Shown here: positions 40,545 through 47,459 of the stretch, piece after piece
Layout of the letters: every line of letters starts with the position of its first letter
How positions within the stretch are numbered: position 1 is the stretch's first letter
Assembly: GCA_022824025.1 (NCBI GenBank)
Contig: JAJEBF010000014.1
Span: 62,001 to 126,000 of the forward strand
Direction of reading: 5' to 3'
DNA: 64,000 bases
Origin: Caldilineaceae bacterium
Lineage (GTDB): Bacteria > Chloroflexota > Anaerolineae > Caldilineales > Caldilineaceae
Program-made: the position numbers and the translations under genes
Notes under the pieces: generated by a model
The model's database searches: none
Told to the model about the DNA's origin: nothing
What the model saw: the letters and a program-made list of their open reading frames with translations, nothing else

Positions 40545-42371
40545 TTACCCGTCCGCCTCGCCCAGAACCTCTGCCGGATCCAGCTTTGTGAACAGAGGCG
40601 CAGGCTTTCTCAACCGCTGACCGGGAGCCAGCCTTTGCGCCTGCCAAACGCCGCTCGCCTCCCCATGGTCGTACCGCAACACCACATGGGCGCCGCGCGC
40701 GTCCTCAACCGCCTCCGTGCTGAGCTGGCCGAATAGCGGCTCGGAATAGCCCATCAGCTGGTGCAACCGCTCACTGCTGTGCGGCAAAATCGGCGCCCAA
40801 AGCAACTTCAGCCAGTCGATCGCCTGCAGCGTTACGTACACGGTGGTCGCCGCCGCCTCCGGGTCCGTCCGCACCGTGCGCCACGGCTCCTTTTCATTCA
40901 GATACTGGTTCACCCGCTGGCTCAAACGCCGCGCCTCTTGCAGGGCAGCCTTCAGACGCACCGCTTCGTAGAGCGCCGCGACGCTCTCAAAGCCCCCGCG
41001 TATCTCCGCCAGCAGTGACGCGTCGGTCGCGTCCAATTCGCCCGGCTTCGGCGCCGCCCCGTCGTATCGCCTGTAGGCAAAACCCAGCGCCCGGTTGACA
41101 AGGTTGCCCCAGTTGGCCACCAGCTCGTTGTTCACCAGCTCAATGAAATCCGGCCACGTGAACTCGGTATCTGCCGTCTCGGGGGCCATCGCAGTCAAGG
41201 TATAGCGCCAGGCATCCGCCTCGAACTCCTCCAATACTGTATTGAAGCCGATGACATTGCCCCGGCTGGTGCTGAACTGCGCGCCGCCAAAGTTGAGATA
41301 CTCGTTGGCCGGCACATCATAGGGCAGTTGCAGACGCGCAGTCTTCAGAGGCTCCGCGGTTGCCGAGAGTCCGGAGATATTGGCTGCTTCGCCCTCGACA
41401 TTCGTTTCAGCGTTATAGGCCATGATCATGCCCGGCCAGATCTGCGTGTGAAAGGGAATGTTGTCCTTGCCGATGAAGTAGTAGTGACGCGCCTCCGGCG
41501 AAAGGTCCCGGTCCCACCATTCGCGCCACTGGCCCCCGCTCAACGCCGCCCACTCTATCGCCGCGCTCAGGTAACCCTGCACCGCGTCGTACCAAACGTA
41601 GATGCACTTGCTGTCATAACCTTCCAGCGGGATGGAGATGCCCCAATCGATGTCGCGCGTGATGGCCCGGCCCCGCAGCTCCTTCAGGTTCAGCTGACCC
41701 TGCGTAAAGTTGAGCACATTGTTGCGCCAGTGCTCCTTGCCGCTGCCTATCCATTCCAGCAATGGCTCATTCAGCGCGCCCAGATCAAGGAAGAAGTGTT
41801 CGGTCTCCCGGACCTCCAGCTCGCGGCTGCCGCTCAGCTTGGACCGCGTATTGGTCAGCTCCAGCGCGTCGTAGAGCCGGCCGCAGTTGTCGCACTGGTC
41901 CCCGCGCGCTTCCGCAAACCCGCAAAAGGGACAACTCCCTTCCACGTAGCGGTCCGCCAGAAACCGGCCCGCCTCCGGATCGAACCACTGCTTCTGCACC
42001 TCTTTGTAGATGAACTCGTTCGCCAGATGACGCGTGAAGACCTGCTGTGTGACATCCCAGTGGTTCTGCGTATCCGTATGCGTGTAGAGGTCGAACGTCA
42101 GGCCCATCGCCTGGCAGCCTTCCACGAACAGTTCGTGGTACTTGTCCACCACTTCGGCCGCGCTGAGACCCTCCCGCTCAGCCTGCAGCGTAATCGGCGT
42201 GCCGTGCGTGTCCGAGCCGCTGACCATCAGTACATCGTTCCCGGCCATGCGCTGGTACCGGGCAAAGATGTCGGGCGGCAGATACGCGCCCGCGATCTGC
42301 CCAATATGTTTCTCGCCGTTGGCATACGGCCAGGCAACACACACAAGGATCTTCCGGCCCTGATTGGTCAT
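40545..42371 (-). CDS. metG: Methionyl-tRNA synthetase
   Basis: 608 residues, a class I synthetase without the C-terminal tRNA-binding extension of some forms. The HIGH motif is HIGQ at 22-25. The zinc knuckle is four cysteines at 147, 150, 160 and 163 (CPFCG ... CDNCG). The KMSKS loop is QFSTS at 365-369, with both lysines replaced; a similar loop is known in actinobacterial-type MetRS. The segment [10 protein letters not shown] and [12 protein letters not shown] are characteristic of that type. GGAGG lies 7 bases before the ATG. It heads an operon with the GT-C-like, VanW and coaX genes. Confidence 0.97.
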
Positions 42372-42382
42372 CAGTCATCCTC

Positions 42383-42421
42383 CACTTGAGTTGGGGCGGA
42401 CACCAAGCCACTCAAGTGTCC
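42383..42421 (-). promoter_or_regulatory. metG: Two mutually exclusive hairpins before metG
   Basis: In the mRNA sense, CACTTGAGT-like arms at 42410-42418 and 42383-42391 are exact complements of nine bases, ending against the GGAGG ribosome site (42379-42383). A second exact six-base pair joins 42416-42421 with 42398-42403. The two share bases 42416-42418, so only one can form at a time. The first would block the ribosome site, the second would free it. This fits a translational switch, but no ligand or T-box is recognisable. Confidence 0.4.
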
Positions 42422-42647
42422 TTCCCCTGAGCGGACTTCTGCGCTGCTCTCCCGCAAGCTGCCGTCCCGTTGGCTGCGACCGGCACGCCGCGCGCCGCCC
42501 TTCCGGCCCCAATGCCGCGCCTCGGGACTTTGCCCACAATCTAAGCCTGGCAGCCCCTGTCAATGACTCCTGCGCGTCTGCAGCCCAAAGAACGCCCGCT
42601 CGCGACTCGAAAATACCTCCCGAACGCCTAGCCTCATCTTCCGAGTC

Positions 42648-42677
42648 ATTATATCTGTCCCATTTCGTTCGTGGCAA
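42648..42677 (-). promoter_or_regulatory. Promoter for the metG operon
   Basis: On the minus strand TTGCCA (42672-42677) and consensus TATAAT (42648-42653) are 18 bases apart. Transcription would start near 42641, giving a leader of about 270 bases before the metG ATG. Confidence 0.6.
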
Positions 42678-42808
42678 AAGCTGGCCTCCCTCCCTCTTCC
42701 GTATGCCGCGCCGCTGCGTGCTCCCAGATCTGACGCCCAACACTTGCTTCGGCCGTCAAGTCGGCCATGGTCCCGCCCGTATCTGATTCCAACAATCCGG
42801 CTTGCTGC

Positions 42809-42817
42809 TGCTATAAT
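42809..42817 (+). promoter_or_regulatory. Extended -10 promoter for the YesL-like gene
   Basis: TGCTATAAT, that is TG-N-TATAAT, the extended -10 form that needs little -35 contact. No good -35 box is present at the right distance. It points at the membrane-protein gene starting at 42904 and could also serve the molybdenum hydroxylase genes. Confidence 0.55.
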
Positions 42818-42903
42818 GGGGGCAAAGTGACCCGGCGCCAGACAGGCGCCTCGTTGACGCAAGCTCCGCGCGGGATTGCAGCCATGCCGTTAGTAGGATC
42901 AAA

Positions 42904-43530
42904 ATGAAAGCATTTACAGTCATGTGGCGCACCATCAAGGCGCTCTACGAAGACCTGCTCCTGTGGGTCTGGCTCAGCGTGCTCTGGTGGATCGGGATCT
43001 TCCTGGTGTTGCCCGCGGGCCCGGTCACGTCGGGCATCCACAGCGCCGCCAACCGCGTCGCCAACTACCGGCGCGTGGAGAGCGCGTTCTTCTGGGATGG
43101 CGCGAAGGCGACAATTGGCAAAAGCTGGCTGCTCCTTGGCATAAACCTCCTGATGATCGGCGGCGTTGCAATCAACATCCGCTTCTACAGCTCCAGCACC
43201 GCCAGCTGGGCACAGATTATCAGCATCGTATGGGTCTGGATCCTGATAATCGTCCTCATGGCGGGCCAATATTTCTTTCCCCTGCTCTGGCAACAGGACG
43301 AAATGAGTATCAAGATGGTCCTGCGCAACGCTTTCATTCTCGCGCTGCGCCACCCTCTCTATACCTTTCTCATGTTCCTCTTCCAGGTCCTGTTGCTCGT
43401 CGTCAGCTTTGTCACCGTCCTGCCCATCTTCCTGCTTACCCCGGCGGCCGTGGTCCTGGCAATGAACTTCAGTCTCGTCGGCCTCTTGCAGGAACTGGAC
43501 CTCGCGCCGGACCCGCCGCCAGGCGCATAG
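42904..43530 (+). CDS. YesL-like (DUF624) membrane protein
   Basis: 208 residues with about five hydrophobic segments. The layout fits the YesL/DUF624 family: a short amphipathic start, a helix around WLSVLWWIGIFLVLPAGPVTSGI, a soluble loop with FFWDGAKATIGKSW, then paired helices. YesL-type proteins are often found with sugar-utilisation genes and their function is unknown. Here it precedes the FAD subunit of a molybdenum hydroxylase by 60 bases on the same strand. An AGGATC site lies just before the ATG. Confidence 0.75.
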   Translation: MKAFTVMWRTIKALYEDLLLWVWLSVLWWIGIFLVLPAGPVTSGIHSAANRVANYRRVESAFFWDGAKATIGKSWLLLGINLLMIGGVAINIRFYSSSTASWAQIISIVWVWILIIVLMAGQYFFPLLWQQDEMSIKMVLRNAFILALRHPLYTFLMFLFQVLLLVVSFVTVLPIFLLTPAAVVLAMNFSLVGLLQELDLAPDPPPGA

Positions 43531-43589
43531 CGCCTGATGCAGACACGCTGAGGCCTGCAGCGCCTCAACCCAAAGATTACATAACCACT

Positions 43590-44408
43590 ATGGCGATACT
43601 CGCGGAATATCACAAACCAACATCGCTGGCGCAAGCGTTCGAACTCCTGTCAGACCCTGCCTTCCGCCGCGTGCCCCTTGCCGGCGGCGCCCATCTCGTC
43701 GGCGTGCTGGAAACCAGGGAGCGCCGCGACATTGAGGGCGTTGTCGACCTCGCCGGGCTAGGCCTCTCGTTCATCGAGCAGGACGGCGCCTACCTGCATG
43801 TTGGCGCAATGACGACAATCACCGACCTGATCGAACATCCCCTGTCCGCAGAGCTGGCCGGAGGAATCCTGCCCGACACAGCCCGCTACGAAGGCCCCCT
43901 GAACCTGCGCAACGCCGCCACCCTCGGTGGCGTCGTTGCCCTCGCCGAGCCCGACAGCGAGACATACGCCGCCCTGCTGGCGCTGAACGCTTCGGTCGTC
44001 ACTGCCGACCCGAACGGACAGGATACCATCAGCCCGCTGCAAGAGTTCGCCGACGCCTGGCCGGCAGCATCCCAAGCCCCCAGCCTCATCACCGGGATCA
44101 GACTGCCTCTCGGTCAAGCCGCCGCCGGCCATGCCCGCATCGCTCGCACACCCATGGACCGGTGTATCGTCGCCGCCGTCGCTGTCATCCGCGCAGACGG
44201 CAAGTCGGCCCGGCCTGAACCTGCCGATGGCGGCGGGAACACCGCCTCCGCCCGTGTAGCCCTCTGCGGCGTAGGCCCCCGTCCAAGCCTGGCGGGCGGC
44301 CGGCACATTCCCGAAGGAGACTTCAAGGGCAGCGCGGAGTACAGGCTGGCCATGGTCGAAGTCGTCGTTCGACGCGCCCGTGCCGCAGCCGCCGCGACCC
44401 GCATTTAG
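43590..44408 (+). CDS. FAD-binding subunit of a xanthine dehydrogenase/CO dehydrogenase-family molybdenum hydroxylase
   Basis: 272 residues, CoxM/XdhB-like (FAD_binding_5 plus C-terminal CO_deh_flav_C). The two FAD pyrophosphate loops are altered: AGGAHL at 31-36 where AGGTDL is usual, and TLGGVVALAEPDS at 111-123 where TxGGN(I/L) is usual. The acid D122 is kept. The start is ATG 43590; the frame runs open further left only as a shadow of the YesL-like gene. It is 48 bases before the fused iron-sulphur/molybdopterin subunit. The loop changes suggest weakened or altered flavin binding, matching the defect in the partner's ferredoxin domain. Confidence 0.88.
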   Translation: MAILAEYHKPTSLAQAFELLSDPAFRRVPLAGGAHLVGVLETRERRDIEGVVDLAGLGLSFIEQDGAYLHVGAMTTITDLIEHPLSAELAGGILPDTARYEGPLNLRNAATLGGVVALAEPDSETYAALLALNASVVTADPNGQDTISPLQEFADAWPAASQAPSLITGIRLPLGQAAAGHARIARTPMDRCIVAAVAVIRADGKSARPEPADGGGNTASARVALCGVGPRPSLAGGRHIPEGDFKGSAEYRLAMVEVVVRRARAAAAATRI

Positions 44409-44456
44409 CCGTGGGCGCCTTCCATTTCGATCCATCCACCCAATAGCAACTCGAAT

Positions 44457-47400
44457 ATGCCATCACCGATTACGCTCACCATCAACGGATCCCTTCACTG
44501 CATCGATATCCAACCGGGAGAGTTGCTGCGTACAACCCTGCGGCGGCTGCGCGTCTACAGCGTCAAGCACGCCGACGAAACCGGCGAAAGCGGCGCCGAC
44601 GCCATCCTCTTGACGCGGACACCGGAAGATCCAACCAGCTATCGTCTCGTCAATAGCGGGCTGATCCTGGCCGCCCAGGCCGACGGCGCATCCATCATCA
44701 GCCTGGAAGGGCTGGAAGAAGAGGGCGAAGAGAGCGCAACCAGAAGCCGGGAAGAGGCCCTTTCCCCGCGCCTTTCCGCGCTCCAGCAGCAGTTCATCGA
44801 ATGCGGCGCCATTCAGTGCGGCTACTGCACGCCGGCCCAGATGCTCGCCGCCCAACATCTGCTCGACAAGGATCCCCAACCCAGCGAAGCCGCCGTCCGC
44901 GCCGCCATCGCAGGCGTCCTCTGCCGCTGCACCGGCTATCTCAAACCGGTCCAGGCGGTCCTGAGAACCGCGGCCCAGCTGCAGGGCAAGACCCCTCCGC
45001 CGCTTGAAATCGACGTGCGCGACGCACCCGCGACCGGGGAATGGCCTACGCCAGACGAACTGCCCCCGGACGGCTGGCGCGGCGAAGGGCCCGATACGCA
45101 GACCCAGACCCGCAGCGTCCCCGTCACCGTCGCGCCGCCCCAGACGCAGGTCGTCAACAAGGCGGAGCCCAAGGTCGATGCCGTCAAACTGGCAAAGGGC
45201 CGCCCCGTCTTTACCGACGATGTTGACATGCCCGGCATGCTCTACGGCGGCCTCCTGACGAGCCCCGTGGCCCACGCCCGCATCCTGTCGATCGATACCT
45301 CGGCAGCGCTCGCTCTGCCGGGCGTCCACGCCGTGCAAACCTACGCCGACCTGCCCCGCGTCATCTATGCCAGCGGCGGCCAGAGTTATCCCCAGCCGCC
45401 CCCGTACGACCAGGTGTGCCTTGATTCCAAAGTGCGCTATGTCGGGGATAGAGTCGCCACCGTCGCCGCCGAAACGCCGGAGCTTGTGCAGGAAGCGCTG
45501 GAACGCATCAAAGTCGAGTACGAAGAGCTGCCCGCCGTCTTCTCGCCGGAAGACGCAATCCAGCCCGGCGCGCCCGTGATTCACGACGAAGACGACGCGC
45601 AGATGATCCACGACGCCAAAGGCAACATCGCCGTCAAACTGCGCGTCGACCACAACGACGTCGATGACGCCCTGGCCTCCGCCGCCTTCGTCTTCGAAAG
45701 CGAATACAGGGTGCACCAGGTGCAGCAGTCCAGCATCGAGCCCCATATCGTCATCACCTATTGGGATGAAGACGACCGCCTCGTCATCCGCACCAGCACG
45801 CAGGTCCCCTTCCACGTGCGCCGCATGGTCGCGCCCCTGCTCGGCCTGCCCGTCCGCCGCATCCGCGTCGTTAAACCGCGTATCGGCGGCGGCTTCGGCG
45901 GCAAGCAGGAAGTGCTGATCGAGGATCTCTGCGCCCACCTGACAATCGCAACCGGCCGCCCGGTCAAGTTCGAATACACGCGCAAACTCGAGTTCACCTC
46001 CGCCCGCACACGCCATCCGCAGCGGCTGCGCTTCCGCAGCGGCGTCGACGCCAGTGGCAAGCTCGTCGCCATGGACGTGCGCGTCGTGGCCGACACCGGC
46101 GCTTACGGGACCCACGGCCTCACGGTTCAGATGGTCACCGGCTTTCGCGCCCTCAGCACATACTGGCTGCCCGCGGCCCGCTTCGACTGTGACGTTGTTT
46201 ACACCAACAAACCCGTGCCCGGCGCATTCCGCGGCTACGGCGCGCCCCAGGCCCTCTTCGGGCTCGAGCAGCATATGGAGGAGATGGCCCTCGCCTTCGG
46301 TATGGACCCGGTCGAATTCAAGCGTATCAACTGGGTCAAAGAGGGGCAATCGCTCCCCATGGCCGTGGCGATGGGCGAAGGCCGCGAGGGGTTCCCCCAA
46401 ACGGTGGAAAGCAGCGGCCTGGCCGAATGTGTCGAGACCGGCGCCGCCTCGATCGGCTGGGACCGGCGCAACGACCCCGAATGGAAAGCGCCCCCCGATC
46501 GCCCTCACATCCGCCGCGGCATCGGCCTTGCCATCTGCATGCACGGCACCGGCATCGCCGGTCTCGACATGGGCGCCGCCAGCATCAAGCTCAACGACGA
46601 CGGCTCCTTCAACCTTCTCGTCGGCGCAACCGACCTCGGCACCGGCTCCGATACCGTCCTGGCCCAGATCGCCGCCGAAGCCCTCGGCGTTCCCCTGGAG
46701 CAGATCCTCATCTACAGCAGCGACACCGACTTCACGCCCTTCGACACCGGCGCCTACGCCAGCAGCACGACTTACATCTCCGGCGGCGCCGTCCTCAAAG
46801 CGGCCGAGGATGTCAGCCGCCAGATCAGGCGCCACGCTGCCGCTCACCTCTTTGACGGCATTGAAGCCGATCAACTCTGGCTCGAAGGGCAGAAGGTCGT
46901 GGCACCGGATGGCGAGACCGTTCCGCTCGAAACGGTCGCCCTCCACAGCATCCACCAGGAGGAGCAGCATCAGATTATGGCCACCGCCAGCCACATGAGC
47001 TACGTCAGCCCGCCTCCCTTTGCCGCCCAGTACGTCTCGCTTGAAGTGGACACCGAAACCGGCCAGGTGACCGTTGAAAAAGCCGCCATGGCCGTCGACT
47101 GCGGCATCGCCATCAACCCCGTAACCGCCAGCGGCCAGGTCGAAGGAGGAATGACCCAGGCCCTCGGCTACGCGCTCTGCGAAGAAATGCCCTACGACCC
47201 CAACGGAAAACTGCAGATCGACCGCTTCGGCGACTACAGAATCCTTGCCGCCGACGAGATGCCGCAACTCGATACCGTCCTCGTCCAGACCTACGAACCG
47301 ACCGGCCCCTTCGGCGCAAAGGCGATCGCCGAAATCCCAATGGATGGCATGGCCCCAGCCATCGCCAGCGCCATCTTCGACGCCACCGGCGTCCGCATCC

Positions 47401-47459
47401 GCCAGATTCCCTTCACACCGGAGAGAGTTTGGCGGGCTCTGCAGAGAGAAGAGTCCTGA
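44457..47459 (+). CDS. Molybdenum hydroxylase: fused iron-sulphur and molybdopterin subunits with a cysteine-less ferredoxin domain
   Basis: 1000 residues joining what are usually a small (CoxS/XdhC-like) and a large (CoxL/XdhA-like) subunit. Residues 1-90 align with the plant-type 2Fe-2S domain, but its four cysteines are D40, S45, D48 and G68 (KHADETGESGADAILL; LVNSGLILAAQ). The second, helical 2Fe-2S domain is intact: C121, C124, C156 and C158. The molybdenum part begins near residue 230 and has IGGGFGGKQEV, AFRGYGAPQALFG, the cofactor loop LGTGSDTVLAQ, and the probable catalytic E959 in GAKAIAEIP. These enzymes hydroxylate purines, aldehydes or aromatics with water. The electron acceptor is probably unusual. 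No cofactor-insertion gene is adjacent. Confidence 0.92.
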   Translation: MPSPITLTINGSLHCIDIQPGELLRTTLRRLRVYSVKHADETGESGADAILLTRTPEDPTSYRLVNSGLILAAQADGASIISLEGLEEEGEESATRSREEALSPRLSALQQQFIECGAIQCGYCTPAQMLAAQHLLDKDPQPSEAAVRAAIAGVLCRCTGYLKPVQAVLRTAAQLQGKTPPPLEIDVRDAPATGEWPTPDELPPDGWRGEGPDTQTQTRSVPVTVAPPQTQVVNKAEPKVDAVKLAKGRPVFTDDVDMPGMLYGGLLTSPVAHARILSIDTSAALALPGVHAVQTYADLPRVIYASGGQSYPQPPPYDQVCLDSKVRYVGDRVATVAAETPELVQEALERIKVEYEELPAVFSPEDAIQPGAPVIHDEDDAQMIHDAKGNIAVKLRVDHNDVDDALASAAFVFESEYRVHQVQQSSIEPHIVITYWDEDDRLVIRTSTQVPFHVRRMVAPLLGLPVRRIRVVKPRIGGGFGGKQEVLIEDLCAHLTIATGRPVKFEYTRKLEFTSARTRHPQRLRFRSGVDASGKLVAMDVRVVADTGAYGTHGLTVQMVTGFRALSTYWLPAARFDCDVVYTNKPVPGAFRGYGAPQALFGLEQHMEEMALAFGMDPVEFKRINWVKEGQSLPMAVAMGEGREGFPQTVESSGLAECVETGAASIGWDRRNDPEWKAPPDRPHIRRGIGLAICMHGTGIAGLDMGAASIKLNDDGSFNLLVGATDLGTGSDTVLAQIAAEALGVPLEQILIYSSDTDFTPFDTGAYASSTTYISGGAVLKAAEDVSRQIRRHAAAHLFDGIEADQLWLEGQKVVAPDGETVPLETVALHSIHQEEQHQIMATASHMSYVSPPPFAAQYVSLEVDTETGQVTVEKAAMAVDCGIAINPVTASGQVEGGMTQALGYALCEEMPYDPNGKLQIDRFGDYRILAADEMPQLDTVLVQTYEPTGPFGAKAIAEIPMDGMAPAIASAIFDATGVRIRQIPFTPERVWRALQREES

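Follow-up and report, generated by a model that had tools for sequence, protein, structure and literature searches.

A molybdenum hydroxylase without ferredoxin-cluster ligands and the repeated loss of iron-sulfur sites in its family

An emptied ferredoxin domain in a fused molybdenum hydroxylase

The window (the whole 64,000-nucleotide stretch of Caldilineaceae DNA analysed here) encodes a fused molybdenum hydroxylase, P0001, and a YgfM-like protein just upstream of it (Table 1). The open reading frame of P0001 starts with ATG and closes with its stop codon where the original prediction had placed them. Pfam recognised Fer2_2, the a/b hammerhead and both Moco-binding domains, the Moco domains far above their cut-offs, and the protein carries the marks of the xanthine oxidase (XO) family: Ald_Xan_dh_C, MoCoBD_1, MoCoBD_2, the GGGFG motif and E959. 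The helical [2Fe-2S] ligands (CxxC...CxC; C121, C124, C156 and C158) are all present, as is E959, both of which had been predicted. The plant-type four-Cys set of the family is absent from P0001, and Pfam found no match to Fer2 at the N terminus.

Table 1. Features of the P0001 locus, with positions counted from the first nucleotide of the window.
Feature	Position	Strand	Basis or remark
YgfM-like FAD_binding_5 protein, 272 aa	43590..44408	+	48 bp upstream of P0001; conserved upstream in most Caldilineaceae
P0001, fused molybdenum hydroxylase (ferredoxin-like, helical 2Fe-2S and Moco domains)	44457..47459	+	ORF, 1000 aa; Pfam; orthologues
Emptied plant-type ferredoxin domain, residues 1-87	44457..44717	+	No Pfam Fer2; aligns with 2Fe-2S subunits of solved structure
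Ex-cluster loop, residues 37-50 (KHADETGESGADAI)	44565..44606	+	Alignment; dN/dS 0.041
Codons of D40, S45, D48	44574-44576, 44589-44591, 44598-44600	+	Translation, alignment
Codon of G68, site of the fourth ex-cysteine ligand	44658..44660	+	Alignment
Helical 2Fe-2S domain, residues 104-172 (C121, C124, C156, C158 intact)	44766..44972	+	Pfam Fer2_2, 79.9 bits
Moco part, residues 232-998 (Q449, F480, K483, Q484, R592, T729 of GTG, E959)	45150..47450	+	Pfam Ald_Xan_dh_C, MoCoBD_1, MoCoBD_2; invariance
E641, equivalent of E. coli XdhD E606	46377..46379	+	Alignment; PMC12507026

The original prediction held that the N-terminal 90 or so residues still align with a 2Fe-2S domain in which all four cysteines have been replaced. 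Both parts are borne out: the region matches FeS subunits of solved structure such as 3hrd_D and 4zoh_C, and alignment to these and to intact relatives places D40, S45, D48 and G68 at the ligand sites. Where an intact relative reads KHGCETGECGAC...VNSC, P0001 reads KHADETGESGAD...VNSG. No replacement cysteines were found for the lost N-terminal sites. AlphaFold2 with 17 sequences gave a mean pLDDT of 44.7 and nothing usable for structural claims.

Near-full-length orthologues were found in most of the same-genus and same-family genomes searched, the named records being mostly Caldilineaceae MAGs. D40, D48 and G68 occur in 28 of the 28 members of the Caldilineaceae clade that cover the site; position 45 is Ser in 25 of these, Thr in two and Ala in one, and none of the 28 has lost the helical cysteines. 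Matching residues in 28 orthologues from separate genomes rule out a sequencing error or frameshift. Homologues with normal cysteines, which according to the original prediction might have exposed such an error, do occur, but they form lineages of their own.

Strong purifying selection acts on the emptied loop. In a comparison of 15 same-genus sequences, residues 37-50 had a median dN/dS of 0.041, the ferredoxin domain 0.132, the helical domain 0.070 and the Mo part 0.057, in agreement with the predicted selection for a retained fold rather than decay. Relative to the Mo part, the ferredoxin domain evolves 1.9 to 2.8 times as fast in cluster-lost groups versus 1.5 to 1.7 times in intact groups, which indicates mild relaxation, not decay. 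Pseudogene decay is ruled out by these ratios together with the invariance of the Mo site (below).

The 272-residue protein upstream resembles YgfM and the FAD subunits of the P0001 family and is probably the operon partner of P0001; Pfam found no CO_deh_flav_C domain in it. Upstream of this gene lies a hydrophobic, probably membrane protein of 208 residues (window positions 42904-43530), which is kept in 17 related loci and had no match in Pfam or NCBIfam.

Cluster sites across the family

A strong P0001 homologue (E <= 1e-190) is present in 233 of 396 genomes of one Chloroflexota class, nearly always as one per genome, and 182 sequences were gathered, outgroups included. Fusion to the large subunit, which had been singled out as unusual, is in fact the normal state in this family and in E. 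coli XdhD. Four cluster states were seen: both sites intact, N-terminal site lost, helical site lost, and both lost. The N-terminal site alone is lost in 44 sequences (28 in the Caldilineaceae clade of P0001, 15 in a separate clade, f28, and one in f56), with the helical cysteines kept in 15 of 15 f28 members. Three sequences of family f10 have lost the helical site alone, their N-terminal site being intact, and 36 Chloroflexota sequences have lost both (30 in one large clade and six in f20 and f48).

E. coli MG1655 XdhD (NP_417357.1; L174:27317-30187) is without all eight cluster cysteines. Of 5426 E. coli genomes, 5128 contain most of its N-terminal region, nearly always at 95% identity or more. 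The XdhD record is annotated as a fused molybdopterin- and Fe-S-binding subunit despite the absent cysteines, and NCBIfam TIGR03313 likewise names the family Mo/Fe-S-binding. An XdhD-like protein of Cetobacterium somerae (WP_257163401.1), 45% identical to E. coli XdhD and located in an ssnA cluster, retains all eight Fe-S cysteines, which indicates that the loss in E. coli is a separate one.

In a Mo-domain tree built without the Fe-S domains, the cluster states were scattered among intact lineages. The tree labels of two separate FeS subunits (L063 and L209) were corrected ahead of the loss count. With E. coli XdhD in the tree, parsimony gave seven changes at the N-terminal site and five at the helical site; a single both-lost event for f20 and f48 was not rejected (p = 0.40), and the minimum then becomes six and four. 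Because regain of four correctly placed cysteines is implausible, we read the changes as losses, and the tree thus points to six or more losses at the N-terminal site and four or more at the helical site. The D-S-D-G substitutions, for which a homologue search had been suggested, are shared, apart from some variation at position 45, within the 28-member clade, and that loss is one of several independent ones in the family.

A single origin was rejected by approximately unbiased (AU) tests for the N-terminal-only loss (p = 4.8e-6) and, within Chloroflexota, for the loss of both sites (p = 0.0095). Although weak, a tree built from the ferredoxin domain only put the lost groups close to those intact relatives that they adjoin in the Mo tree, which speaks against the transfer of one emptied N-terminal domain from lineage to lineage. 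A 13-mer, VKFGDEHGLTGAD, is common to f28 and f20, so local gene conversion between these two may have occurred.

The replacements are convergent (REPLACEMENTS). At position 40 the large both-lost clade has Ser and all other losses have Asp, and position 48 is Asp in the clade of P0001, in f28, f56 and E. coli XdhD and in most f20/f48 sequences. Where the helical site has been lost, Ser invariably takes the place of the first cysteine and Glu that of the last (in E. coli XdhD, Asp). Two acidic residues are usual at a lost site, and we infer that carboxylates stand in for the charge and hydrogen-bonding role of the absent cluster, the domain keeping its shape as a scaffold. The convergent D/S/D and S...E patterns, with their usual pair of acidic residues per site, might instead mean that the emptied sites still bind metal, Asp/Ser/Asp holding an unusual cluster or another ion. 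This is very unlikely, given that the fourth ligand is Gly, Ala, Gln or His depending on lineage and that replacement of the lost cluster's charge by two carboxylates is the simpler account.

A second fused paralogue, about 39% identical, has an in-frame TGA in three related genomes (G462 C1:1338763, G446 C1:554772 and G497 C144:32625), a candidate selenocysteine codon or the mark of a broken gene.

Active site, gene neighbourhood and probable reaction

The Mo-pocket residues Q449, F480, K483, Q484, E485, R592, T729 and E959 do not vary among the cluster-lost sequences in which these positions are covered; the counts include L209 and the contig-truncated L071, both of which carry the conserved residues. 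E641 corresponds to E606 of E. coli XdhD, a residue proposed to orient urate (PMC12507026); every cluster-lost member has Glu at this position, and E. coli XdhA lacks it. XdhD and the P0001 family also have the GTG motif in common (T729 in P0001), the corresponding motif of XdhA being GQG. P0001 scored 608.6 bits against the XdhD equivalog TIGR03313 (cut-off 1101.9) and 671.9 bits against the XdhA equivalog NF043082 (cut-off 780). As it lies below both cut-offs, it is better described as working like an XdhD-type purine dehydroxylase than as an XdhD equivalog.

Homologues of ssnA, ygeY, xdhC and an F420-type luciferase-family gene lie within 5 kb of intact and of cluster-lost family members, and ygeW and hyuA homologues also adjoin both-lost members. 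These neighbourhood genes match the reductive urate pathway in the variant described for Chloroflexota (PMC12507026). From the active-site markers and gene neighbourhoods taken together, P0001 is most likely a urate-type (XdhD-type) Mo purine dehydroxylase, an assignment that we regard as a strong inference. The loss of relay parts in many lineages could also be taken to mean that P0001 is decaying or has no redox role, acting for instance on an unrelated substrate as a hydratase or isomerase. Strong purifying selection that extends to the empty loop, the invariant Mo site with E641 and the purine-degradation context of the family make this highly improbable.

The window's genome itself encodes SsnA (513 bits, curated cut-off 455.5), on another contig than P0001. 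Its gene is followed directly by npdG, encoding an NADPH-F420 reductase (213 versus 149.8 bits; L229:8953-11392, G000 contig C60), a pair that suits an F420-dependent yanthine reduction step. A luciferase-family protein on another contig of this genome is 76% identical to one that adjoins a family member, and a separate XDH-family locus (G000 contig C32, about 40779-46828) adjoins a luciferase-family F420-type protein. A complete, single-contig genome of the same genus (G004) had no strong match to the P0001 family or to SsnA, possibly through joint loss of the two. SsnA also occurs in genomes without a P0001 family gene, so that co-occurrence across genera is not exclusive and the link between SsnA and P0001 is weak.

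E. coli YgfM keeps the TIGGE motif. In three cluster-intact members (L111, L120 and L124) the upstream FAD-type gene is without TIGG, and for L124 only CO_deh_flav_C was recognised. Across the family no clear link was seen between loss of FAD binding and cluster loss, and degeneration of the flavin partner may proceed separately from that of the clusters.

Electron supply and known systems

The XO-family unit, as taught, consists of molybdenum, two [2Fe-2S] clusters and FAD wired together, and in established structures of the family the distance from FAD to Mo is too great for ordinary tunnelling without both clusters. Since relatives of P0001 have lost one or both clusters repeatedly, the textbook electron path cannot power these enzymes, and since one lineage is without the helical cluster and others without the distal cluster or both, no single shortened route fits them all. 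The common need in the family is reduction of Mo without the relay. Among the alternatives offered in the original prediction, that of a reductase holds up, the best functional match being the urate-reducing XdhD type, whereas a shortened path fails as a general explanation because some lineages have lost the helical cluster.

Our preferred explanation, to which we assign a probability of roughly 0.5, is that P0001 is an XdhD-type purine dehydroxylase with a dispensable relay, its Mo being reduced locally by a small molecule, preferably a second purine. The Mo/iron-sulfur chain, paired with the YgfM-like FAD-fold subunit, would convert urate to 2,8-dioxopurine (yanthine), or perform a closely related purine step, with catalysis at the molybdenum site. 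We propose that the intramolecular relay became dispensable because the Mo centre is reduced by a small molecule, probably one that enters the Mo pocket, and that the ligands would then have been replaced by polar or acidic residues holding the empty loops. The reductant that we favour is a second purine: a hydride from C8 of xanthine would pass to C6 of urate, in a redox-neutral transhydroxylation. Precedents exist for abstracting and inserting oxygen within a single cycle at XO-type Mo sites, and for a transhydroxylase in another Mo family (PMC10420851). Also in favour of a dispensable relay, E. coli XdhD with YgfM is reported to turn urate into yanthine (PMC12507026) even though XdhD has none of the eight cysteines. 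Stated in full, as a relay-free purine transhydroxylase with net conversion of xanthine to yanthine and shuttling of urate, which arose several times and of which E. coli XdhD is one case, the proposal is tentative and on balance doubtful.

Several observations count against these proposals. P0001 falls under the XdhD cut-off and ssnA is not adjacent to it. Purified E. coli XdhD was reported to form yanthine from urate in an assay that contained NADH (Li et al., 2025; PMC12507026), and a strict need for NADH would make the purine version wrong there. A delta-xdhA strain did not consume xanthine in M9 glucose, a medium in which urate degradation is repressed (PMC12507026), which counts against the purine version or leaves it open.

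The main rival is that a diffusible hydride donor, NADH or, in Chloroflexota, reduced F420, reduces Mo directly or through the YgfM-like subunit by an unseen route. It would account for the NADH in the E. coli assay, for npdG beside ssnA and the F420-type luciferase-family protein in the window's genome, and for the TIGGE motif of E. coli YgfM. We nevertheless consider it rather unlikely: we know of no precedent for direct reduction of an XO-type Mo site by nicotinamide or F420, the gap between FAD and Mo without clusters is too wide, and FAD motifs are degenerate, or the FAD domain unrecognised, in several members.

The helical cluster is kept across the whole Caldilineaceae clade, for which a fully relay-free enzyme would have no need. 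For the window's lineage only, an external protein such as a ferredoxin might feed this proximal cluster, bypassing the distal cluster and FAD; the helical cysteines conserved in 28 of 28 Caldilineaceae and 15 of 15 f28 sequences fit such an entry, and for clostridial XdhD a ferredoxin has been suggested as the donor (PMC12507026). We regard it as unlikely, since no ferredoxin gene was noted adjoining P0001, and as an explanation it is not general: in another lineage it is the helical site that is gone while the distal site remains, and further lineages have neither.

Within the XO family, either or both clusters have here been removed several times with the Mo site untouched, and this repeated, convergent unwiring includes a characterised enzyme. 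E. coli XdhD, the proposed starter of anaerobic urate breakdown by gut bacteria, which is under development against gout, is fully unwired, although its record name says Fe-S binding and a commentary gives it a conventional electron-transfer partner (PMC12990295). XdhD co-purifies with a protein of about the size of YgfM, to which electron transfer was assigned (PMC12507026); the commentary likewise sees in YgfM the module for electron transfer and, for the clostridial enzyme, names the physiological donor as unknown (PMC12990295). Neither "2Fe-2S" nor "cysteine" occurs in the main text of PMC12507026. We found no mention of XdhD's absent ligands in the open-access papers covered; subscription papers lay outside the search and we claim no priority. 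The family, with members that have both clusters, either or neither, is a natural series for probing the electron source.

Among known systems, pyrogallol-phloroglucinol transhydroxylase resembles P0001 in the proposed mode only, the transfer of a hydroxyl from one substrate to another at Mo with no electrons from outside; it belongs to the DMSO-reductase family and no homology is claimed. 4-Hydroxybenzoyl-CoA reductase (1rm6), an XO-family dehydroxylase, is the best match of known structure to the Moco part, but has an intact relay and an extra [4Fe-4S] cluster. E. coli XdhABC is similar in its Moco domain (XdhA, NF043082, 672 bits), whereas its FeS subunit is separate, its clusters are intact, its motif is GQG and it has no equivalent of E606. 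The XdhD-like protein of C. somerae is, like P0001, fused and adjoins an FAD gene, in its case within the ssnA cluster, but unlike P0001 has all eight Fe-S cysteines intact. The closest parallel is E. coli XdhD (YgfN) with YgfM (TIGR03313 and TIGR03312). The two chains are only about 34% identical, XdhD has lost eight cysteines versus four, and P0001 is below the curated cut-off with no ssnA adjacent in its own genome; both, however, are fused FeS-Moco chains adjoining a YgfM-type gene, with the GTG motif, a Glu at the E606 position, lost Fe-S cysteines and SsnA in the genome.
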